Shown here: positions 2,997-29,451 of the stretch, piece by piece | Layout of the letters: each line of letters starts with the position of its first letter | Numbering within the stretch: position 1 is the stretch's first letter | Assembly: GCA_900318205.1 (NCBI GenBank) | Contig: ONJS01000020.1 | Location: forward strand, 1-56,976 | Direction: 5' to 3' | DNA length: 56,976 bases | Source of the DNA: an uncultured Prevotellaceae bacterium | Lineage (GTDB): Bacteria; Bacteroidota; Bacteroidia; Bacteroidales; Muribaculaceae | Notes under the pieces: model-generated | Database searches by the model: none | The model's input: only the letters and a program-made list of their open reading frames with translations | Told to the model about the DNA's origin: nothing | Program-made: the position numbers and the translations under genes

Positions 2997-3256
2997 ATAA
3001 AAAGGCTTTAGGTTTTAGGCATTAGGCATTAGTTTTTTTGCATCCGCGCCATTTTTTAAGACTAAAAGAACAACATTTGTAGTCATCCGTACTCTAAAAA
3101 TGAAAACAAGAAGTACAAGAAACACTATGCTATCCAGCACCATGTTTCAAACAACGGGGACAACATTTTTTACATAAATGACCTGTGGTTGCGTAAAGTG
3201 GGTGTAGAAGGCAACAGGCGGTTTACTCCGATGAAATGTCATCAAAAGAACAGTCC

Positions 3257-5301: not shown

Positions 5302-5629
5302 CGAGATAAAATCGTTTGAATTGACAAAGATAGTGCAAGCCGAGCACAGAAAAAAAGAATTGATTCATTTTTTATGTAAAGGCGCCGCCTATCTTCGCCG
5401 AAGGCAAAGATAGTACAAGTTGAGCGAAATGCAAAAAGAAAACTTGTTTTCCTTTAGCATTTCCGAAACGTAGCCCATCTTCGACGCCAGCCAAAATTAG
5501 CGGTTTTCTCTTGAAAAACAACCTTTTCTTACACGAATGACCATAAATGCGAATAATAATGCTCGCTGCGCGAGCAGTTTAAAGTTTAGTGTTTAGAGTT
5601 TAATGGGGCTTGAGGCTATGTCATAAATA

Positions 5630-5847
5630 ACGTGAGTTCGACGAAAATAAGTTATTGATACTCAACTCATCCCCCGCCTGGGGGGAGGTGGCACGAAGTG
5701 CCGGAGGAGGGGGAGAGGGCGGAGGAGTATGATTTGCCCTCGTATCACTTCTTCTTGGGACATCAACGCCCCCTGACCCCCCTCTAATCTTAGAGGGGGA
5801 GTTGCTAACGCGCTGATTGATAATCAATAATTTCATCGAACTCACAT
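5630..5847. mobile_element. MITE-like inverted-repeat element, copy 1
   Basis: The left end reads ACGTGAGTTCGACGAAAATA and the right end is its imperfect inverted copy (GAACTCACAT with TTTCATC before it). Inside are the element's shared body segments: a CCTCC/GGAGG hairpin, CGGAGGAGTATGATTT, CATCAACGCCCC and a CCCCTCTAA/TTAGAGGGG hairpin followed by GTTGCTAACGC. The same architecture recurs at 8774-8975 and 25412-25615. It encodes no plausible protein. Most of the remaining 5302-6009 spacer is low-complexity sequence with no gene recognised. Confidence 0.75.
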
Positions 5848-6009
5848 TAAAAATGACATCAATCAATATCCGTGCTGCGCACGGAGAAATTAAGCAAAAT
5901 TTGTTTGATTTCTCGGCCGTAGGGCGATTAAAAATCCAGCAAAGGGAATTATAACACAGCCTTATGACTACTATAAAAACTGTGTGGCTTTGCGTGAGAT
6001 TTCGGCGGG

Positions 6010-6612
6010 TTAGTCCCAGACGGATTTTATTCTGAAGATGTACTCTGAGATGAGGCGCAGGGTGTTGAGCTGGCCGTTGAGGCGGAATCGGTGGTAGGAG
6101 ACTTCCACGCCATAGTAGTCTTCGATGAATGCCTTGAGCTCTTTTAATTGGCGATCATTCATTCCTACTTCACGAGTCAAGTCATTGTCAAGTGTAATGA
6201 TGAAACCTCTAGTATAGAAGTCTGTATCAAGCAGTATGGCGCAATATTCCAAGAGGCTCGCTTGAATCGTGTCTAATCCTTCCACCGCTTCAATTTCAAT
6301 GATAACAGGTTGTCGGGGCGGCACAGGGCTTTGTTGAGGACGTATCACACCATATCTTGATCCTCCAGAAGTTTGATGGCTAATCGTTGGACGCCCCTGC
6401 GAGTCGTCGCGTTGTTGCATGGCGTATAATTCGTCAAAACTATAAGTATTGCCGCCGATGGCGACCACCTGGGCAGCCGTTAATTCAATATTGGGAGCGG
6501 GAATGGGTACACATTGGGGAGTGGCGGCAACGATGCCTGGCGTGAGCCCGACAGCGACCACGGCACCCACCGCAGCGATTGACTTTTTTCCTTTATTTTT
6601 GTCCTTTTTCAT
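6010..6612 (-). CDS. Secreted protein sharing leader and RYG motif with its neighbour (candidate rSAM substrate)
   Basis: The 200-residue product begins with a Lys-rich stretch and a hydrophobic Ala/Val/Gly segment (about 11-31) resembling a signal peptide or anchor. Its first 66 residues are nearly the same as those of the upstream protein at 6696-7331: KNKGKK, AAVGAVVA, GLTPGIV, then VVAIGG, YSFDELYAMQ. A Pro/Gln/Ser-rich linker with GGSRYGV follows, then a C-terminal domain of about 95 residues (from IIEIEAVEG) that I do not recognise. It is the last gene of a minus-strand operon starting with a small peptide and a radical SAM enzyme. The shared N-terminus and RYG motif fit a leader/modification-site arrangement; this is inference. 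Confidence 0.7.
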   Translation of the reverse strand: MKKDKNKGKKSIAAVGAVVAVGLTPGIVAATPQCVPIPAPNIELTAAQVVAIGGNTYSFDELYAMQQRDDSQGRPTISHQTSGGSRYGVIRPQQSPVPPRQPVIIEIEAVEGLDTIQASLLEYCAILLDTDFYTRGFIITLDNDLTREVGMNDRQLKELKAFIEDYYGVEVSYHRFRLNGQLNTLRLISEYIFRIKSVWD

Positions 6613-6695
6613 AATTATGGCGTTCAGAGTATTATAATTATTAGACTAGAATAGGCCTTTAGGGTTTAATACCCTTTGGGTGGTTCCTATTTTGC

Positions 6696-7331
6696 TTATT
6701 TCAGCTTGAATGTGACAGGCAGCGTGTACCATACGCTCACCGCTTTACCATCTTGACGGCCAGGGGTGAAATTGGGCAGCGACTTGATAACGCGGATGGC
6801 CTCCTTGTCGAGGTCCTTATCCAGCGAGCGTACGACCTTTACCTCACCTATACTACCGTCTTTTTTCACAACAAACTGCACAATGACATGGCCTTCTATG
6901 TTGTTTTTGGCTGGCTCGGGTGGATAATTGATATGAGATTCAAGATACTTCACCAGTGCGGCCTCGCCACCAGGGAACCGGGGCATCTGCTCAACGCTAC
7001 GATAGACAGTGTTTTTATTTTCATCAGCCTTGTCAAAAGAGGGTGAAATTAAGAGAGCGCCATACCTTGTAGCATATGGTGATTCAACTTGGATTTCAGG
7101 CAGCCCTTCTTGCACATCCACAGTGTCCCCACGTTGCATGGCATATAATTCGTCAAAACTGTAAGCTGTGCCGCCGATGGCGACCACGTCGGCAGCGGTG
7201 ATTTCAGCATTGGTGCCCTGAATGGGTAGACCAGCGGCGCTGGCAACGACGATGCCTGGCGTGAGCCCGGCAGCGACCACGGCACCCACCGCGGCGAGCG
7301 TCTTTTTTCCTTTATTTTTGTCTTTCATCAT
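6696..7331 (-). CDS. TonB C-terminal-domain protein with shared leader and RYG motif (candidate rSAM substrate)
   Basis: The 211-residue product has the shared N-terminus (KNKGKK, hydrophobic AAVGAVVAAGLTPGIVVA, ADVVAIGG, YSFDELYAMQ), a short linker with ATRYGALL, and a complete TonB_C domain from about 112 to the end (MPRFPGGEAALVKYL, NYPPEPAKNNIEG, GSIGEVKVVRS, LPNFTPGRQDGK, LPVTFKLK). TonB C-terminal domains normally contact outer-membrane TonB-dependent receptors, but this protein lacks the long proline-rich span of a true energy transducer. It is 50 bp downstream of a radical SAM/SPASM gene and 83 bp upstream of its paralogue. The Tyr-Gly motif next to the leader could be the enzyme's target; not shown by sequence alone. 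Confidence 0.8.
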   Translation of the reverse strand: MMKDKNKGKKTLAAVGAVVAAGLTPGIVVASAAGLPIQGTNAEITAADVVAIGGTAYSFDELYAMQRGDTVDVQEGLPEIQVESPYATRYGALLISPSFDKADENKNTVYRSVEQMPRFPGGEAALVKYLESHINYPPEPAKNNIEGHVIVQFVVKKDGSIGEVKVVRSLDKDLDKEAIRVIKSLPNFTPGRQDGKAVSVWYTLPVTFKLK

Positions 7332-7381
7332 GCTAAAATGTTAAGTTTCTCAATAAATTATAAACTATAAACTTCAAGATT

Positions 7382-8482
7382 TCAAAGTGGTTTTTCCACA
7401 CTAGAATCTTGAATTCTGACATTCTTGAGTTGATTGTAGTGGCAGGTCATCATCAGGTCGCCATTGCCGTCACGCAGGTGGAAACCGTCGCCTTGACAAT
7501 AGCGGAAGGCCTCACAATCCTTGCACGCACCGCGTCTCATCCACTCGTGATCGCGGAATTGCTCAAAGCGGTTCTCCCACACGTCCCAGAAACTGTCACG
7601 GTAGATGTTGCCCTGGCTGTAGTCGCTGCGGATGCTCAGGCAGCCCGAGATGTCACCGTTAGCTCGCACGCTGGCGACGGTGAGTCCCGCCTGGCAGTAG
7701 AAGAAGTAGTCGCGAACAAGCCCCTCGTAGGCGCCCAGAAATCCGTCGCAGGCATAGCTCATGTTGATTTTGCCCTCGATGCGGGTGGCGACGATGAAGT
7801 TGAGCAAGTCGCGGAACTGTTCATCGTTGAGCAGCAGGCTCTTGTCCCGTGCGGCGCGTCCCATCGGGTCGATGGTAAAACAGCGCCAGTTGGTGACGCC
7901 AGCCTCGATGAGCAGCTGCTTGATTTCATTCAGCCGCGGCAGATTGCGGCCGTTTACACAGGTGATGACGTCCCAGGTGAGGTCTGGAATAGTCTGCACC
8001 GCCTCAATAGCCCGCATGGCGGCATCAAAGCTGACCGTTGAATTGCGGAGCCAGTTGTGCTCCTCACGCATGCCGTCCACGTCAAGGGCTATAGAATTGA
8101 TACCCGCTTGGGCCATCTCGCGGGCTAAGGATCGGTCCAAGATGAGGCCATTGGTGACAAGTCCCCACATGAAGCCACGCTCACGGATGGCACGTCCGCA
8201 ATCCATCAAGTCGGACCTGACCAGCGGCTCGCCACCCACGGTCTGCACCATCACTTGCCTGGGATCGCAATGGGCCGCCACCTCGTCCAGCACCGGCACG
8301 AAGTCGGCAAAGGGCATATCGGGCACCATGGATTCCTTGAGGCAGTCACTCCCGCAATGACGACAGGCCATGTTACAGCGCAGGGTGCATTCCCAAAACA
8401 GATCCTGCAAGGGGTACTCTCTCCTGAGGCGTTCCACGTAATCGCGGGTCTTCTCCAATTGTTGCTGTTGGTGCACGTTCAT
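7382..8482 (-). CDS. Radical SAM/SPASM protein-modifying enzyme, TIGR04133-like
   Basis: The 366-residue enzyme has the radical SAM [4Fe-4S] motif CNMACRHC (Cys 36, 40, 43), with nearby Cys 32 and Cys 47, a GGEP motif in TVGGEPLVR, and a C-terminal SPASM region with Cys in YCQAG, SGC, GACKDC, YCQGDG and MTCHY, enough for auxiliary iron-sulfur clusters. SPASM enzymes typically modify ribosomally made peptides or proteins. The WECTLRC-CRHCGSDC stretch resembles the Bacteroidetes family TIGR04133, described next to a lipoprotein (TIGR04134) with a Tyr-Gly motif; that resemblance is from memory. Here the downstream genes are two secreted proteins with a shared leader and an RYG motif. Its ATG overlaps the stop of a 29-codon frame (ATGA), suggesting translational coupling. 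Confidence 0.9.
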   Translation of the reverse strand: MNVHQQQQLEKTRDYVERLRREYPLQDLFWECTLRCNMACRHCGSDCLKESMVPDMPFADFVPVLDEVAAHCDPRQVMVQTVGGEPLVRSDLMDCGRAIRERGFMWGLVTNGLILDRSLAREMAQAGINSIALDVDGMREEHNWLRNSTVSFDAAMRAIEAVQTIPDLTWDVITCVNGRNLPRLNEIKQLLIEAGVTNWRCFTIDPMGRAARDKSLLLNDEQFRDLLNFIVATRIEGKINMSYACDGFLGAYEGLVRDYFFYCQAGLTVASVRANGDISGCLSIRSDYSQGNIYRDSFWDVWENRFEQFRDHEWMRRGACKDCEAFRYCQGDGFHLRDGNGDLMMTCHYNQLKNVRIQDSSVEKPL

Positions 8483-8568
8483 GATTGTGAAGTTTTAGTA
8501 TGATACTGAGTAGCTGTTCTGTTAATCACATAGCCGATAGCCAAAATAGTTGCAGAAAGAATAAGCAT
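8479..8568 (-). CDS. 29-residue hydrophobic peptide, first frame of the rSAM operon
   Basis: A short frame starts at ATG 8568 and ends in a TGA sharing the ATGA overlap with the radical SAM start. Residues 2-15 are hydrophobic (LILSATILAIGYVI) and the tail is polar (NRTATQYHTKTSQS), so it looks like a single-span membrane peptide. A TATATTTG promoter box ends 27 bp upstream of its ATG, so it is the first open frame on the inferred transcript. It contains no Cys and no obvious cleavage or core motif. It may be a real small protein or only a translational-coupling leader. Confidence 0.5.
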   Translation of the reverse strand: MLILSATILAIGYVINRTATQYHTKTSQS

Positions 8569-8594
8569 CAAGATGGCCAATTCATTTCCAACTG

Positions 8595-8602
8595 CAAATA
8601 TA
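8595..8602 (-). promoter_or_regulatory. TAnnTTTG promoter box of the rSAM operon
   Basis: The minus strand reads TATATTTG, a full match to the Bacteroidota -7 box. Transcription would begin a few bases downstream, leaving a leader of about 20 nt before the small peptide and about 105 nt before the radical SAM gene. Confidence 0.6.
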
Positions 8603-8639
8603 ATACAATCTTGCTAATGAACAATAAAATGCTCGCTTC

Positions 8640-8745
8640 TCTCGCAGTTTAACGTTTAAAGTTTAGAGTTTAATGAGGCATCCGCATTGATGCTCGCGTT
8701 GCTCGCTGATTAGAGATTAGTGGTTAGTGATTAGAGAAATAAAAA
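8640..8745. repeat. Phrase-like low-complexity repeats
   Basis: AGTTTAACGTTTAAAGTTTAGAG followed by GATTAGAGATTAGTGGTTAGTGATTAGAG: runs of near-identical 7-10 bp words. Similar phrases occur at other intergenic sites in the window. No coding potential or clear hairpin was seen. Confidence 0.5.
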
Positions 8746-8773
8746 GTTGTGAGACTCTTGTGAGCAATAAACA

Positions 8774-8975
8774 ACATGAGTTCGACGGAGGAGAAAAGTG
8801 CTGATGCTCAATTCCTCCCCTAAGATAGGGGAGGTGGCGCAGAGCGCCGGAGGAGTATGATTTACCCTCAAAACACTTCCTCTTGTAGCATCAACGCCCC
8901 CCAGCCCCCTCTTATCTAAGAGGGGGAGTTGCTAACGCACTGATTAACAATCGATAATTCCATTGAACTCACGTG
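8774..8975. mobile_element. MITE-like inverted-repeat element, copy 2
   Basis: The left end is ACATGAGTTCGACG and the right end is ATTGAACTCACGTG, an imperfect inverted pair. The body matches the other copies: CCTCCCCTAAGATAGGGG, CGCCGGAGGAGTATGATTTA, CATCAACGCCCC, then the TATCTAAGAGGGGGAGTTGC hairpin half. It lies in the divergent spacer between the rSAM operon and the M50-like gene; the rest of 8569-9113 is low-complexity repeats and the two promoters. Confidence 0.75.
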
Positions 8976-9073
8976 AAATAAAAGACTTGGCGACTTAGCG
9001 GCTTAGCGTGAGGCTAAATATTGCGGATACAAAAAACTAAAGCCTAACGCCTAAAACCTAAAGCCTTTTATAT

Positions 9074-21366: not shown

Positions 21367-24300
21367 ATGAAAAAGATTTTACTAACCCTATTGATGGCAG
21401 TGGCCTTTGTGTCACTCTGCCCGAGTGTGGCCCATGCCACGCAGACAATCTCGGGAACCGTGTATGTCGGTTCGCTCACCGACACCAGAATCGCGCTGGG
21501 CGGTAACACGACACTTATCGTTAATCAGGATTACTACCTGCGTGAAATTTCGGGTATTAACTATAAGTTGACGCTCGTCCTCAACGGTGATTACACCCTC
21601 ACTGTGGACCAGGACAAGAAGAATTTGGGAGCTATCGATGTCGCAAGCCTGGAAATCAGGGGTACCGGTAACCTGCTGAGTACCGGCAGGAACTTTGGCG
21701 CCTACATTCGTGGCGGCGAATTGTTAATCGACAACTACACCGGCACAGCAGCATTCCATGGTCGCGACGGCGACTGGGCACATGCAATCTCGATAATAGA
21801 CAATGCGACTGTTAATATCAATAGTGGTACCGTTGAATGCCAGACCACCGATGGCTGGGGTATCGGAGGTAAAGGAAAGGTAAATATTACGGGCAGTAAC
21901 ACGGTGGTCAACATCAGCTCCGACCAGGATGGTATCCACATCTACAGCGGCACCGGCACCGACGACTACGGTACTCTGACTATGAACGGAGCCACGCTCA
22001 ACGTCTATGGTCAGCGCAAAGCCATTGAATGCTCTTCACTTTACCTTGACTCCGGTGCCAGTATTAATGCCTACAATGACGATAGGTATGCCGGTATCGA
22101 TGTCGTCTGGCTTGAGGCCAACGAGAGTTCAATTTCTGTCACCAGCGTTGGCAATGGTATCGAGGTAACTTACCTCAGAGCCATGAACACCTATTTCTAT
22201 GCCTATGGCGGTACCAAAGCCCATGGCATCTACGGAAGGGACAAGCCTGCCGGTTCAACTGGTATGAGCGGTTTTCTTATTTTCAATGGCTATAGCACCC
22301 GCAGTCAGGTCTTTGCCAATGGCGACTATAGCGGCATCCACGGCGATGCCAATATCCGGATTGCCAATCGATACCTCTATGCCGTGGCGCGCCGCAGTAA
22401 CTGCCGAGCTGTCGAGTCAATGGCTGAACTGAGTATTGAGAACAATCCCTATAGCATCTATGATGCCTATTCGCCCAATTGTCCTTTCTATGCCCAGGGC
22501 GGAATCCGCATGTACCAGCCCTTCAACGACCGCTTCAATCAGGATTATTCCATGCTGACGGACGTCAATCGTTTTGACATCTCGAGCGATCAGCGCTACT
22601 TTGTCGTCTATGCCGGCAGCGGTCCATCGACCAACACGACGGCTACTCCAGGACGTGTAACCATCAAGGGCGTCTCGATCACCGAGGCCGGAGTGAACAT
22701 GGACGAGACGCTGCAGGCCGAATACAACGGTTATTACCAGACCCGCCCGGTGGCAGCCTACAAGGGCGAACATGTCAAGTTCGTCGAGCCCCAACTCCTG
22801 GCCGATTATGTGCTTCATAATCCCACCAACAACCCGGTGACCTATTTTCCCAACCCGCAACCTGTGCGCACCGTTGAATGGTATCGCGTCAATAACACCG
22901 GTAACATAACAAAAGTGGGAACGGGTGACACCTACATACCCACTGCAGCCGACGTGGGCTACAAGATAAAGGCAATGGTTTTCTACAGTTCTCACCAGGG
23001 TGCCGTTTACAGCAACGAGTTACCTGTCGTGGTCAAGCAGAACAACAATGAGCCTAATCGACCCACCCTACAGATCAGTACACCCAGCGGATCATCGACC
23101 CGGTATGTGTATGTCTCGGCCTACCCCACTCAGGAGTATATCGTGATGACCACCCCAAAGGCAGTCGATGCCTTGACCGAAGCCGACTGGGCCAACGCCA
23201 TGAGCCGTAGCAGTATCGGGCTCTTGCAGCTCTGCCAGGCCAATTATGACCAAGTCTATTATGTCTATACCCGCTTCAAGGAGACCGCTACCCATGCTCC
23301 GGGCACACAGGTGCTCTATTCCTCTATCTCGGGCGGCACATCGGTGAATTACACGGGTATCTCTATGACCGCAACGCCCATGAATGGCGCGACGCTAATT
23401 CCTGATGATCATGGCTATTGCTGCCTGAAGAACACCGTCGTGAAACTCACCCTGTCGCCAGTGCCCTCCAACGCCACCAACTTCAATGGTGTATTGGGTA
23501 GCGGCATGTCCATTTCCAAGCCATCCGGTAGCACCGGCACCTATTGGGATAACGAGTGTGGAACCCTCTATGCCGATGCTGCCTGCACCCAGTCACTTGT
23601 GTCAGGCCAATACTACAAGACAGTGTATGCCAAACTCAAGGCCAACAGGGACAATGATGTTTTTGGAAATGCTAACATCCGTGCCTACCTTGCAGGATTC
23701 ACCTCCGACCTTTATTTTCAGGTAGCTAACGACGACGGCACCTGGGACCTCTGGGGACTTAACATGAGGGCTTATTACACTTTCCACGTGACGAAAGGCT
23801 GTTCAGTCATAGAGCCCATTGTTCCAATTCCCGCCATGGCTGATATCTCCAACGTGACCGTGGAGTACGCTGGTTATAGGGGCTCCTTATCCAACCCCAT
23901 CCCACCGACAGTGACCGTCAACACCCAGGCAAAGACCTTCACGGTCAGTACCTATGACGCGACAGCCGACGACAATGGCTATTACACCTTTTACTTCATG
24001 GATGGCGACCGCAATTTAGCCTATACAAATATTTACGTTGACAAACGTCCTGTCGAGGGCGTCATCATCACGCCCGAAGAAGTGACGCTTGATCCCGTGG
24101 TGGGTCAACTGCAACTGCAGGCCGCAATCTATCCCGAGTATGCCGAGGGCGACGTGGTGTGGACCTCCAGCAAGCCAAACTACCTCTCGGTCGATGAGAA
24201 TGGTCTGGTGACCTTGACCAATCTTAGTAACACATTAGGCGAGACCTATTACATCACAGCCCAAGTCGAGGACTTTATCGACACCTGCGTGGTTCATGTC

Positions 24301-25074
24301 GGCGGCGAGAAGTACGATCTGACGGTAGGTGGCACCCGTGTGACCAGCCTCAACAAGTTTGACATCCTGGGCCATGGTGAAGCCTCTTACGATAATGGTA
24401 CGCTCTACTTGAACGGTGGAACAGTGGGAACTGCAACCTCCACACGTCCTGCTATCGCTAGTGATATGAAAACACTGATAATCAAAACGTTACAACAAAC
24501 AAGAGTACAATCGAACTGCAATACAGCAACAATCTATTCAACGGGACGTGTGGTATTTGATGGCACTGGAACCCTGCTGGTTAGTAACCGCAATGCCTAC
24601 ACGGGTCTCGCAGCAAGGGATATCGTCGTCCGTGACGGTGCAAATGTCGATGTGACATGTCGAAATATTGGCACGGCCGCCGCCAATGGCGTGAGTGTAA
24701 TCGGTACTGGAGTATTGACATCCAACGGCACTAATGTATCCTTGCAGGCCAAAAACTACCTATCTGGCTACATCACCGAGCCAGCCGGAGCCTTCTGGCT
24801 ATCCACTCGAGGAGATGTGGTATTAAACGGTATAACTGTGGCTGGTCAAGATGTTGTCGTCACTGGCATACCCATCGAGCCCTCCTTCATCCGTGGCGAC
24901 GTTGACAACAACGGCGAGGTGAAGATTGGCGACGTGACTGCCCTGATCAGCTATCTGTTCAGCGGTGATGAGTCGGCTATCAACCCGCAGGCTGCCGACT
25001 GCGACCAGAACGGCGAGATCAAGATTGGCGACGTGACGGCTCTCATCAACTATCTGCTGTCAGGCACTTGGTAA
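21367..25074 (+). CDS. Large secreted beta-helix-like protein with Big_2 and dockerin-like C-terminus
   Basis: The 1235-residue product has a signal peptide (MKKILLTLLMAVAFVSL, cleavage near AHA-T), an N-terminal region (about 25-450) of short beta-strand repeats with Asn/Gly/Ile periodicity (SIIDNATVNINSGTVEC, TMNGATLNVYGQ) typical of carbohydrate-binding or beta-helix surface proteins, Ig-like middle domains, a Big_2-like domain around 905-975 (GVIITPEEVTLDPVVG, DVVWTSSKPNYLSVDENG), a second beta-repeat block (about 985-1170), and a 60-residue dockerin-type tail with two Ca-binding-like loops (GDVDNNGEVKIGDVTALISY, ADCDQNGEIKIGDVTALINY). The C-terminal third resembles that of the protein at 25909-29451. 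Ligand and role unknown; no sorting signal other than the dockerin-like tail was recognised. Confidence 0.85.
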   Translation: MKKILLTLLMAVAFVSLCPSVAHATQTISGTVYVGSLTDTRIALGGNTTLIVNQDYYLREISGINYKLTLVLNGDYTLTVDQDKKNLGAIDVASLEIRGTGNLLSTGRNFGAYIRGGELLIDNYTGTAAFHGRDGDWAHAISIIDNATVNINSGTVECQTTDGWGIGGKGKVNITGSNTVVNISSDQDGIHIYSGTGTDDYGTLTMNGATLNVYGQRKAIECSSLYLDSGASINAYNDDRYAGIDVVWLEANESSISVTSVGNGIEVTYLRAMNTYFYAYGGTKAHGIYGRDKPAGSTGMSGFLIFNGYSTRSQVFANGDYSGIHGDANIRIANRYLYAVARRSNCRAVESMAELSIENNPYSIYDAYSPNCPFYAQGGIRMYQPFNDRFNQDYSMLTDVNRFDISSDQRYFVVYAGSGPSTNTTATPGRVTIKGVSITEAGVNMDETLQAEYNGYYQTRPVAAYKGEHVKFVEPQLLADYVLHNPTNNPVTYFPNPQPVRTVEWYRVNNTGNITKVGTGDTYIPTAADVGYKIKAMVFYSSHQGAVYSNELPVVVKQNNNEPNRPTLQISTPSGSSTRYVYVSAYPTQEYIVMTTPKAVDALTEADWANAMSRSSIGLLQLCQANYDQVYYVYTRFKETATHAPGTQVLYSSISGGTSVNYTGISMTATPMNGATLIPDDHGYCCLKNTVVKLTLSPVPSNATNFNGVLGSGMSISKPSGSTGTYWDNECGTLYADAACTQSLVSGQYYKTVYAKLKANRDNDVFGNANIRAYLAGFTSDLYFQVANDDGTWDLWGLNMRAYYTFHVTKGCSVIEPIVPIPAMADISNVTVEYAGYRGSLSNPIPPTVTVNTQAKTFTVSTYDATADDNGYYTFYFMDGDRNLAYTNIYVDKRPVEGVIITPEEVTLDPVVGQLQLQAAIYPEYAEGDVVWTSSKPNYLSVDENGLVTLTNLSNTLGETYYITAQVEDFIDTCVVHVGGEKYDLTVGGTRVTSLNKFDILGHGEASYDNGTLYLNGGTVGTATSTRPAIASDMKTLIIKTLQQTRVQSNCNTATIYSTGRVVFDGTGTLLVSNRNAYTGLAARDIVVRDGANVDVTCRNIGTAAANGVSVIGTGVLTSNGTNVSLQAKNYLSGYITEPAGAFWLSTRGDVVLNGITVAGQDVVVTGIPIEPSFIRGDVDNNGEVKIGDVTALISYLFSGDESAINPQAADCDQNGEIKIGDVTALINYLLSGTW

Positions 25075-25908: not shown

Positions 25909-28900
25909 ATGAAAAAGATTCTACTCACGCTATCATTTGCATTGGTGACAATGTACGCCAGTGCCTATTTCAAGGTGGGCAACATTTATTATCAGCCCGA
26001 CGAACAGGCCGACGACGGCACCTGCTGGGTGCGCGATAGCCCCTATTATGGCGGCTATGATGGCTTGACCGACATCACGATTCCTGGCCGAGTGACCTAC
26101 AACGGCAGGGAATATCGCGTGACCGCAATCAGCAACAATGCCTTCCAGAACGTGACTACGCTGCAGCGTGTGCGCCTGGGCTGGGGAGTGGAGGAGATCT
26201 CCCCCTATGCCTTCGCGGGCTGCACAGGCCTGAAGTATGTGTTCTTGCCCAGCACGCTGACGAACATCTACAACTATGCCTTCCAGAATTGCTCGTCAAT
26301 GACCCAGATGGGTGTGGCAGCACCGACACCGCCCACGCTGTCGACCTATGCCTTGTCGGGCATGAAGAAATGTGATATCGTCACGGCGATACAGACTAAC
26401 GCCAGCAGCTACAATGCTGTGACCGCATGGAAGAATGCCGACAGCGACGGCTCGGTCTCCTATAGCGGCACCAAGGCCAACGACTTTGTCGAGAACAACA
26501 TGTGCTATGTCATCACCAGTCCCGCTACAACGAGCAACAACGTCGACGTCACTCTGGTGGGCATCTCGTCAGGTGTGACCTATCTGCCTATGGCCTCTTC
26601 GGTCAATGACTATACCAACAGCACCTACGGTGGCGGCTCTTACATCTTTTGTAACTGGACCGAAATTGCCCCCTATGCTGCCTATGGCCACTCGACCTTG
26701 AAAACGATTGGCCGCAGCGACCTGGGCTCATACTTCCGTCTCAAGAAGGTAGGCGCTTATGCCTTCAACAGCTGCCACGCACTGACCGAGGTCAATATCT
26801 CGGCCCAGGAAATTGACAACTTTGCCTTCTACAATTGTTCCAACCTTGCTACCGTCAACCTGTACCTCAAGGGCAACGAGAGCTATGGTACAAAGAAGCT
26901 GGGCGAGCGCTGCTTTGCCCGCACCGCTGTCTCCTATCAATATATCCCGCAGTCGTTGACTGACTATGGAGATGGAGCCTTTGCCATGTGCAGCAACCTG
27001 GAGAACTTCGGTGTCAGCAGCAACAACACGCTCTTTGAGACCTTTGCCGGCTGGCTGTGCAGCCAGGACTACGAGACCATCTATCAGGTGGGCGCTGCCA
27101 ACACCAGGGTGGGCAACGGCGGCTTCTACGGCATCACTAGGACCATCAAGCCTTGGTGCTTTGCCGGTTGCACCGCGACCGATATGCTGAAGATTCCCTA
27201 TGGCGTCACGACGATTGGCAATTATGCATTCTATGATGCCAATATCACAAGTATGCTCATTCCCAGTTCAGTAACGTCGGTTGACAGCTATGCGTTCTGC
27301 TATATGAGCTATCTTGAACATCTCTACTACAATAAGCCCACTCCCACCTCGGGACTGTCATTCACTGGACTGAAAAGCGGGTGCGTACTGAGCGTTCCCT
27401 ACCAAAGCAGGAGTAACTATTCCAGCAATTCGACTTGGTCCAGCGCCTTCACTGGGGGCATCGACGGCAAAGCCTATGACCTGTCCAAGCTTGACGATGC
27501 GAGCAACACAAGGCTGTATTATACCGTGACCAGTGTAGGCTCTTATACCGACCCGGCGGTCACCAACCTCACGATGAATGGTCAAGTGAAAATCGTCCGC
27601 GGCGAAATGTCGGACACCTACAGCGGAACGATAGATATTCCCATGCGGTATTACTCCGACAATTTTAATGACTTCGCAATTACCGAGATTGATTATAGAG
27701 CATTCTATGTCTTTACCAGCCTGAAACAAATTTATGGTGGTGACTGCTTGAAAACGATTGGCGAAGAGGCCTTCTCGACATGTTTGTCGCTGACGACGGT
27801 AAACTTCCACAACCTGGTGAGTATCGGCAAGGATGCGTTCGAAGACTGCACGGCGCTGAGTTCGTTCAATATGGGTAACCGTCTTGAAAGCATTGGTGTC
27901 TCCTCATTCATCAACTGCAAGGCATTGACTGGAGAGATTTCATTGCCTGCGACGGTGACCAACATCGGCGCCTCAGCATTTGTCAATTGCACCGGTCTGC
28001 AAAGCATATTCGTGAACAGGACCGAAGCCACCACGTTTGGCAGGGATTTCTATCCCTCCAGCGTTGAAGGATTTGCATGCTATGTGCCTCTCAACCAATT
28101 CTACGATTTCTACTCCAAGATGAAGACAAACACTTATTCCTCGTCACCCACCATCGCACCCAAGAAACTCTTGCCCTGGGTGAAGCCCACCACCCAGTGG
28201 ACCCCCATCTCGGTGCCTGTCGATGACGATGTGCTGCTGCCTGCCACCGGCGAGTTCTATATCGCCACAGACTACAGCAGGCCCCATAGTTCGCTGGGCA
28301 AGACCCTACTGAACAACAACAAGGGCATCAAGGGCTATGAGGGCATGTTGCTCAAGGGCACGGTGGGAACCATCTACCGCTTCCGCCGCAAGACGGACGT
28401 CAGCAACTACACCTATGTAGCACCTTCCAACAACATTCTGAAAGGCGTGACTGGTGCAAGCCAGACGCTGACCTATACCTCAGCGGGACCGTGGTACTAC
28501 ACATTCAACGGCTCAGACAGGTTCGCCAAAGTGACCTCGTCTAAAACGCTGAACAGCGGCTCGGCCTATGTGCAGCTGGCATCCGACGTCATCGGCCCAG
28601 TATCGTCAGTGCCCGCCGTCTATATCGAGAACACTGCCACGCTCTACAACTTGTGGATCAACGGTGTGATGGTGACGAGCCTGAACTGCAGCAACCTGTC
28701 TGTCATTGACGGTGTGAGCGGCACGGTGACCTATACCCCTGGCACCAACACGTTGAAACTGAGCAACGCCACCATTGTCTCCACCACGTCAACCGATTTG
28801 GCAGCTAACATCATCAATCAAATCAGCGACTTGAAGATCAACGTTATCGGAACCAACACGCTCCGAGATACATCAGGAAGTTCTGCTTCACTCGTGGCCA

Positions 28901-29451
28901 GCGAGTCGACCTCGATAACGGGAACGGGAGAAGTGAATTTCATCAGCACACAAAAAACCGGTTGCCGCGTGGGCGATGGCAAGACGCTGACCATCAGTGG
29001 CGGAGCTAAAGTCAACATCTCGGGCCTTAACTACGGCCTCTTTGGTAGCGGCACCACGAGCAAACTGGTCGTGAGCGGAGCAACGACCAAACTAACAGCA
29101 AAGGGTACCAACAACGCTTCGATCTATCGCATGAAGGCCACATTGAACAATGGCCTTGCTATCACCGAACCTGCAGGAGCCTACTTCAACAGTGCGGGCA
29201 CTGTGGTGTCAAGCGGCGGTATGGTAATTTCAGGCACCAATGTCGTCATCAGCAAGCCCTCCGCGATGCGTGGCGACGTGAACGGTGACGGCAGCGTGAC
29301 CATCAGCGACGTGACAGCACTTATCAACTACTTGTTGAACAGCAATTCTACGGGTGTTAACGTCAGCGCTGCCGACTGTGACCAAAACGGCAGCGTCGCC
29401 ATCAGTGACGTGACAGCCCTCATCAACTATCTGCTCAGCAGCACTTGGTAA
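25909..29451 (+). CDS. BspA-type leucine-rich-repeat surface protein with dockerin-like C-terminus
   Basis: The 1180-residue product has a signal peptide (MKKILLTLSFALVTMYASA), then LRR_5/BspA-type repeats in the N-terminal part (FQNVTTLQRVRLGWGVEEI, AFAGCTGLKYVFLPSTLTNI) and again at about 610-720 (AFEDCTALSSFNMGNRLESI, SLPATVTNIGASAFVNCTGL). A roughly 150-residue domain follows, then a beta-strand repeat block (about 925-1110) like the C-terminal block of the protein at 21367-25074, and a dockerin-type tail (GDVNGDGSVTISDVTALINY, ADCDQNGSVAISDVTALINY). BspA proteins in Bacteroidota bind host or microbial ligands; here the ligand is unknown. It shares promoter and downstream regions with the preceding gene although most of the bodies are unrelated. 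Confidence 0.9.
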   Translation: MKKILLTLSFALVTMYASAYFKVGNIYYQPDEQADDGTCWVRDSPYYGGYDGLTDITIPGRVTYNGREYRVTAISNNAFQNVTTLQRVRLGWGVEEISPYAFAGCTGLKYVFLPSTLTNIYNYAFQNCSSMTQMGVAAPTPPTLSTYALSGMKKCDIVTAIQTNASSYNAVTAWKNADSDGSVSYSGTKANDFVENNMCYVITSPATTSNNVDVTLVGISSGVTYLPMASSVNDYTNSTYGGGSYIFCNWTEIAPYAAYGHSTLKTIGRSDLGSYFRLKKVGAYAFNSCHALTEVNISAQEIDNFAFYNCSNLATVNLYLKGNESYGTKKLGERCFARTAVSYQYIPQSLTDYGDGAFAMCSNLENFGVSSNNTLFETFAGWLCSQDYETIYQVGAANTRVGNGGFYGITRTIKPWCFAGCTATDMLKIPYGVTTIGNYAFYDANITSMLIPSSVTSVDSYAFCYMSYLEHLYYNKPTPTSGLSFTGLKSGCVLSVPYQSRSNYSSNSTWSSAFTGGIDGKAYDLSKLDDASNTRLYYTVTSVGSYTDPAVTNLTMNGQVKIVRGEMSDTYSGTIDIPMRYYSDNFNDFAITEIDYRAFYVFTSLKQIYGGDCLKTIGEEAFSTCLSLTTVNFHNLVSIGKDAFEDCTALSSFNMGNRLESIGVSSFINCKALTGEISLPATVTNIGASAFVNCTGLQSIFVNRTEATTFGRDFYPSSVEGFACYVPLNQFYDFYSKMKTNTYSSSPTIAPKKLLPWVKPTTQWTPISVPVDDDVLLPATGEFYIATDYSRPHSSLGKTLLNNNKGIKGYEGMLLKGTVGTIYRFRRKTDVSNYTYVAPSNNILKGVTGASQTLTYTSAGPWYYTFNGSDRFAKVTSSKTLNSGSAYVQLASDVIGPVSSVPAVYIENTATLYNLWINGVMVTSLNCSNLSVIDGVSGTVTYTPGTNTLKLSNATIVSTTSTDLAANIINQISDLKINVIGTNTLRDTSGSSASLVASESTSITGTGEVNFISTQKTGCRVGDGKTLTISGGAKVNISGLNYGLFGSGTTSKLVVSGATTKLTAKGTNNASIYRMKATLNNGLAITEPAGAYFNSAGTVVSSGGMVISGTNVVISKPSAMRGDVNGDGSVTISDVTALINYLLNSNSTGVNVSAADCDQNGSVAISDVTALINYLLSSTW

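Follow-up and report, generated by a model that had tools for sequence, protein, structure and literature searches.

We have analysed a stretch of 56,976 nucleotides from an uncultured Prevotellaceae bacterium (contig ONJS01000020.1, positions 1 to 56,976; here called the window), and within it a minus-strand operon that encodes a radical SAM/SPASM enzyme of the TIGR04133 family and two exported proteins, which we consider to be its probable substrates. Downstream of the enzyme gene (7382-8482) come, after a gap of 50 bases, a gene for a protein of 211 residues (6696-7331) and, after another 83 bases, a gene for a protein of 200 residues (6010-6612). An earlier note on this DNA had described four consecutive minus-strand frames; these are present, and the enzyme and the two exported proteins were recovered as claimed. 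The main features are as follows.

7382-8482, minus strand: radical SAM/SPASM enzyme (TIGR04133; predicted splicease), 366 residues, assigned from profile score, tree, common residues and AlphaFold model.
6696-7331, minus strand: exported protein of 211 residues (putative substrate 1) with leader, RYG site and C-terminal TonB_C domain, assigned from Pfam PF03544 and the RYG.
6010-6612, minus strand: exported protein of 200 residues (putative substrate 2) with leader, RYG and a probable C-terminal domain resembling acyl carrier protein (ACP), without the phosphopantetheine Ser, assigned from profile searches and alignment.
7116-7331, minus strand: leader of substrate 1, 72 codons, with an export-signal-like part and then TAADVVAIGGTAYSFDELYAMQ, from pairwise alignment and leader search.
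6397-6612, minus strand: leader of substrate 2, 72 codons, from pairwise alignment and leader search.
7059-7067, minus strand: RYG codons of substrate 1, residues 89-91 (Tyr 90), predicted splice site, placed by residue number.
6349-6357, minus strand: RYG codons of substrate 2, residues 86-88 (Tyr 87), predicted splice site, placed by residue number.

The two exported proteins share their N-terminus, as the earlier note had seen, with 68% identity across the first 72 residues and, at the DNA level, 82% over 199 nucleotides. Searched with a profile built from 32 such leaders, 61 genomes of the genus yielded 50 matches, which are spread over 27 genomes. TIGR04133 exceeds its cut-off in every one of these 27, and a TIGR04133 gene is found no more than 3 kb away from 49 of the 50 matches; the lone unlinked match is an 18-residue fragment (residues 3-20, E-value 5.5e-4) in genome G010. 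The adjacency of leader homologues to TIGR04133 genes, which had been proposed as a check, was thus found, and the gene linkage is established here. Leader and enzyme also vary together, since enzymes at leader-type loci are 64-97% identical to that of the window and those at loci with VYGPP lipoproteins are 52-57% identical to it.

The idea that the leader is an enzyme-recognition element was borne out in part. On the one hand, the linkage to the enzyme speaks for it. On the other hand, the leader begins with a part that resembles an export signal. A lipobox Cys, which speaks for export of the leader-type proteins, occurs in 3 of 34 leaders and in neither of the two window leaders. One leader-type partner (L041:1494-1949, minus strand) has no hydrophobic stretch and neither TonB_C nor an evident ACP-like end, yet it retains ITAADEVQID and LYGPP, followed by a Cys-rich tail. 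Considering that this protein keeps the segment without the hydrophobic stretch, we take the TAADxVxI segment of the leader as a candidate for enzyme recognition.

Gene conversion was considered and rejected as the main cause of the common leader, because the excess of within-genome identity was only slight. At eight loci, the DNA of leaders from TonB-type and ACP-type proteins showed a mean identity of 74% within a genome (12 pairs) as against 70% between genomes (93 pairs); for leaders of the same type in different genomes, the mean was 75% (117 pairs). A 345-residue leader-type protein at L066 (= L050:4868-5905, minus strand), with one TonB_C-like stretch before TAANAVTIDG and a second at its end, looks like a recombined pair.

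Behind the leader, both window proteins carry RYG and all 34 leader-type relatives carry XYG. The first X in these 34 proteins is R in 15, M in 6, K in 6, L in 5, V in 1 and S in 1. Accordingly, RYG could not be kept as a strict motif, because Arg is present in just 15 of 34, but the Tyr-Gly that follows the leader is invariant, and Pro is often found after the site (XYGxP). In the BLAST cluster of the leader, which has 42 members, three have no YG, namely a TonB_C fragment that lacks the leader and two proteins of unrelated sequence.

The partners outside this leader type are mostly lipoproteins, and the premise that TIGR04133 enzymes adjoin Tyr-Gly lipoproteins was confirmed. In a lipoprotein cluster beside TIGR04133 genes (46 loci), which was built by BLAST with the motif ignored, YG is present in 65 of 65 proteins and YG.?P in 63 of 65. 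Counting one locus per distinct enzyme sequence, with distant enzymes below 250 residues and loci having less than 300 bases on both sides set aside, YG.?P was found in adjacent partners at 66 of 83 loci, versus 50 of 668 other open reading frames of the same loci. By eye, an XYG candidate was seen at 82 of 88 loci. These counts establish the conservation of the motif. We also collected 82 lipoprotein-type frames, using lipobox, hydrophobic stretch and YG as the criteria, a set that gives X and spacing rather than YG conservation and includes some probable non-partners such as L095 (175 residues), L097 (228 residues) and L121 (180 residues); in 17 of the 82, the lipobox Cys itself is the X. 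A copy on a Treponema plasmid likewise has the lipobox Cys as X.

The domains behind the site alternate, in line with the earlier suggestion that they are interchangeable, with TonB_C in 15 of the 34 leader-type proteins and an ACP-like domain in the other 19. In substrate 1, PF03544 TonB_C covers residues 133-210 (80.1 bits, cut-off 24.6), in agreement with the earlier assignment. Substrate 2 as a whole protein matches no Pfam or NCBIfam family over cut-off, but the end of this exported protein, previously called unknown, is probably ACP-like and degenerate. A profile of the 19 non-TonB_C domains, whose ACP-like status rests on their alignment with one another, matches acyl carrier proteins of the PDB at 4.7e-16. 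The window-type subgroup alone (11 rows) reaches 0.059 at best, and all six of its matches up to an E-value of 1 are acyl carrier proteins; the domain of substrate 2 alone gives 0.0045 to AmcB, below the cut-off. Pfam PP-binding matches 6 of the 34 substrates, and NCBIfam TIGR00517 matches 7 of the 19 ACP-type rows. The phosphopantetheine Ser is retained in 4 of the 19 ACP-type relatives and is replaced in substrate 2 (GMNDRQL). When the window ACP-like subgroup was compared by hhalign with a single relative, the probability was 18, and the structure model of substrate 2, from an alignment of 3 of the 19 ACP-type rows, was too poor for a fold test (predicted local distance difference test, pLDDT, 40.5). 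Pairing with TonB_C had been taken as the novel part of the system; TonB_C is usual among the substrates of this genus, and of the two domains the ACP-like one is the more unusual.

The enzyme scores 490.2 bits against TIGR04133, over the curated cut-off of 425, and the Pfam families Radical_SAM and SPASM are over their cut-offs as well, as expected from its earlier description as a TIGR04133-like radical SAM/SPASM enzyme. NCBIfam classes TIGR04133 as 'hypoth_equivalog' and does not name a reaction. The family is over cut-off in 28 of 61 genomes, namely 23 of 37 within the genus (counting the own genome) and 5 of 24 in other families of the order, and regions around 33 TIGR04133 matches were retrieved for the neighbourhood comparison. 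It is also over cut-off in 15 of 24 further genomes of the genus. A scan of genome contigs gave at least 80 named loci with relatives of the window enzyme; among the matches listed, the best named relatives are those of two metagenome-assembled genomes (MAGs), a Muribaculaceae MAG from water-buffalo omasum at 88% and a Prevotellaceae one at 87%. A TIGR04133-like enzyme (34%) was also seen in a Clostridia MAG (L118:3300-4331 and upstream), beside an 85-residue protein with QVAYGVPA and no evident lipobox.

After TIGR04133, the second-best NCBIfam family of the window enzyme is TIGR04103, which we take to be the PlpX family. In a tree of 43 enzymes, TIGR04133 groups with one TIGR04103, three GDL-type and one Agathobacter row (support 96/93). 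Five residues in two motifs mark the same group, given here for TIGR04133, for the TIGR04103/GDL/Agathobacter rows and for other SPASM rows, respectively. In CxHCGS, G44 is present in 19/19, 5/5 and 0/18 and S45 in 19/19, 5/5 and 3/18; in GxxGxYExxxR, G247 is present in 18/19, 5/5 and 1/18, E253 in 19/19, 4/5 and 0/18, and R257 in 19/19, 4/5 and 2/18. L122 is in the tree and absent from the residue comparison, and alignment A5 is without L095. TIGR04133 is a branch related to TIGR04103 yet separate from it, and this relationship is established here. The AlphaFold model of the enzyme (pLDDT 87.7) has an N-terminal helix of residues 3-22 ahead of the barrel. Its best 50 Foldseek rows hold SuiB, which is the closest solved fold, anSME and other SPASM enzymes, and no recognised splicease is among these 50.

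In the available text of three papers, PlpXY excises tyramine at XYG with several X accepted, and PlpX is a member of IPR026482 (PMC10533398, PMC11002830, PMC10373908). PlpXY is further described there as leader-independent and active on tags inside proteins (PMC10533398), which makes the splicing of larger proteins feasible. The window system resembles the PlpA/PlpX/PlpY spliceotides in its XYG with variable X, often then Pro, and in a related enzyme with common residues; it differs in that its substrates stay multi-domain proteins and in that its enzyme is far below the TIGR04103 cut-off. On a Nostoc plasmid, the neighbours of a TIGR04103 gene encode a Nif11 precursor with LYGLPPELF at its end and a 71-residue protein. 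The GDL/DUF1843 peptides with TIGR03913 enzymes are a second relative, since these enzymes are about 48% identical to the Nostoc TIGR04103 protein and some of the peptides carry RPYGP or QPYGA, but the peptides have about 55-70 residues and YG is not in every one. In Tropicibacter oceani (L183:1674-4482), a relative of the TIGR04103/GDL enzymes (47% to Nostoc) overlaps the gene for a trypsin-like peptidase domain.

The nearest catalogued system is that of TIGR04133 with TIGR04134 lipoproteins. The window enzyme is itself a TIGR04133 member, and its partners are likewise exported, adjacent and provided with XYG. Nine lipoproteins were scanned; all nine match TIGR04134, seven of them over cut-off, and a CarboxypepD_reg-like domain follows the site, over the Pfam cut-off in two of the nine. 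In contrast, neither window partner matches TIGR04134 at an E-value up to 1, and both have no lipobox Cys and end in a TonB_C or ACP-like domain rather than a CarboxypepD_reg-like one.

From these sequence relationships, we consider it probable that the TIGR04133 enzyme is a splicease of exported proteins, which excises the tyramine part of Tyr at XYG. The earlier note had regarded the Tyr of RYG as a modified or tethering residue; the conserved Tyr-Gly agrees with a role of this residue, but the site fits the XYG of spliceases, where part of the Tyr is excised, and not a decorated or tethered Tyr. What follows on the recognition segment, the reaction, the sequence of events and the use is our inference. 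The enzyme would bind the precursor in the cytoplasm, probably through the leader segment TAADVVAIxGxxYSFDEL. Part of the Tyr of RYG would then leave the backbone, and the Arg would be turned into a backbone alpha-ketoamide residue, which would be reactive and electrophilic. The spliced protein would be exported through its signal peptide, and the folded end, TonB_C or ACP-like, would remain attached and position the electrophilic site in the cell envelope. A rather doubtful proposal is that the spliced site could serve as a covalent trap for proteases or amines. Spliceotide ketoamide products are reported as protease inhibitors in the available text of PMC10373908 and PMC11117315, which, if splicing is true, would make the Arg/Lys-YG proteins candidate traps of trypsin-like or Arg-specific proteases; bonding to envelope amines would be an alternative use.

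Several points weigh against splicing. The window enzyme reaches 127.9 bits against TIGR04103, far below the cut-off of 725, AhbD is just 7 bits behind TIGR04103, and across 26 TIGR04133 members the best E-value of AhbD beats that of TIGR04103. Because the scores of TIGR04103 and AhbD/NirJ are near-equal, scores alone do not decide on the reaction. Five rows make up the splicease side of the tree, and the tree was flagged with warnings about long branches and residue composition. YG.?P is also found in partners of distant radical SAM genes at 5 of 14 loci; this control is weak and unclean, and therefore we place more weight on the motif-blind BLAST cluster. At 6 of 88 loci (L056, L077, L080, L089, L096 and L099), no XYG candidate lies within 2.6 kb. 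The window substrates match no Nif11 or NHLP leader family in Pfam or NCBIfam and have a signal-peptide-type leader instead. No PlpY-like or other recurring third component was found within 3 kb at the 88 loci, the rest of the genome not having been searched; as a guess prompted by the title of Richter et al. 2024, the N-terminal helix of the enzyme could stand in for PlpY.

Among the alternatives, a modification of the Tyr of XYG without a cut in the backbone survives best, although we consider it unlikely. The product would then be an ether, a three-residue cyclophane in which the Tyr ring is joined to the residue following Gly, or some other crosslink. The crosslinking SPASM maturases (WgkB, PapB, DynA and others) match the window enzyme too, more weakly, and SuiB, the closest solved fold among the best 50 Foldseek rows, is a Lys-Trp crosslinking enzyme. 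A three-residue cyclophane (triceptide) requires that the residue two positions behind the aromatic one has a side-chain carbon. Ala and Val stand at this position in the window proteins and are compatible with it, but at 4 of the 129 lipoprotein sites and 3 of the 55 genus sites the residue is Gly, with no side chain to link. The Gly after Tyr and the variable X suit splicing better, and the special residues are common to TIGR04133 and TIGR04103.

It is less probable still that the enzyme acts at XYG in a different way, for example through cleavage, decarboxylation or the use of Tyr for a lipid or covalent attachment, whereby the C-terminal domain would be released or tethered. MftC, which decarboxylates a C-terminal Tyr in the available text of PMC8326336, also matches the window enzyme, and the site touches the lipidated Cys in the 17 of 82 lipoprotein-type frames. 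However, XYG is internal in the substrates with folded domains downstream, and MftC stands elsewhere in the tree, though on a long branch. Very improbable, finally, is a Tyr-Gly that is only a structural or binding motif of envelope proteins next to an enzyme that acts elsewhere, for example on a heme-like cofactor: the AhbD and NirJ families score near TIGR04103, but XYG proteins are the only neighbours that recur across families, XYG sits in otherwise variable linkers beside the enzyme, and tree and residues set TIGR04133 apart from the rows that we ourselves label NirJ/AhbD-like.

Two further features lie upstream of the enzyme gene.

8595-8624, minus strand: promoter-like box read by eye, with TTG at 8624-8622, 19 bases, and TATATTTG at 8602-8595.
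8479-8580, minus strand: 33-codon open reading frame starting with TTG, enclosing a 29-residue ATG frame.

The box, TTG-19-TATATTTG, resembles the Bacteroidota promoter consensus. The 29-residue membrane peptide, which had been counted as an operon component, was rejected as a part of the system, because in tblastn against 184 loci its sole match outside its own place is the sister locus in genome G032. The 33-residue frame is 91% identical to that locus (L055 and overlapping loci), and its next-best match has an E-value of 1.0.

Two copies of a dispersed intergenic repeat flank the operon, one just behind it (5558-5851) and one just before it (8628-8978), in pieces of 28-82 nucleotides with 82-86% identity; for one piece of 76 nucleotides, the own genome assembly (3.6 Mb in 53 contigs) shows 13 matches, some of them partial. 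An inverted repeat of 39 nucleotides, with arms at 3000-3038 and 9031-9069 that are 95% complementary and 5992 nucleotides apart, encloses the operon and the gene for a TIR-domain protein (PF13676; 3257-4207, minus strand) with weak matches, below cut-off, to anti-phage TIR proteins (Thoeris ThcB4, retron TIR). Elsewhere in the window, two large proteins (21367-25074 and 25909-29451, plus strand) each end in a type I dockerin domain, the second additionally having BspA-type leucine-rich repeats.

We found no open-literature paper naming TIGR04133, TIGR04134 or TIGR04103, and none that deals with the present system. TIGR04133 may already be contained in the splicease survey of Scott et al. 2022, which is presumably the source of a published number of predicted systems. 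This number, 939 predicted splicease systems next to 27 characterised ones, is quoted in the available text of PMC10533398. The TIGR04133/TIGR04134 pairing, catalogued by NCBI, and spliceases as such are already known. As far as we have seen, the TonB_C and ACP-like substrates, the reading of TIGR04133 as a splicease with common residues, and the subgroup with Cys as X are new.

In summary, we tentatively suggest from sequence comparison that TIGR04133 may be a large unrecognised splicease family with envelope-protein substrates in Bacteroidota and some spirochaetes, with the lipidated Cys converted in one subgroup. If splicing is true, a reaction could be assigned to TIGR04133, with a mass shift that is definite (-135.08 Da, the loss of tyramine). 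Lipoproteins, TonB_C proteins and exported ACP-like proteins of Bacteroidota and some spirochaetes would then contain an alpha-ketoamide in their backbone. The subgroup with a lipidated N-terminal Cys as the converted residue would have an unfamiliar kind of lipoprotein N-terminus; we know of no lipoprotein N-terminus with a converted lipidated Cys. Ribosomal beta-amino acids would then no longer be confined to small secreted peptides and would also belong to the cell envelope of Bacteroidota from gut and rumen.

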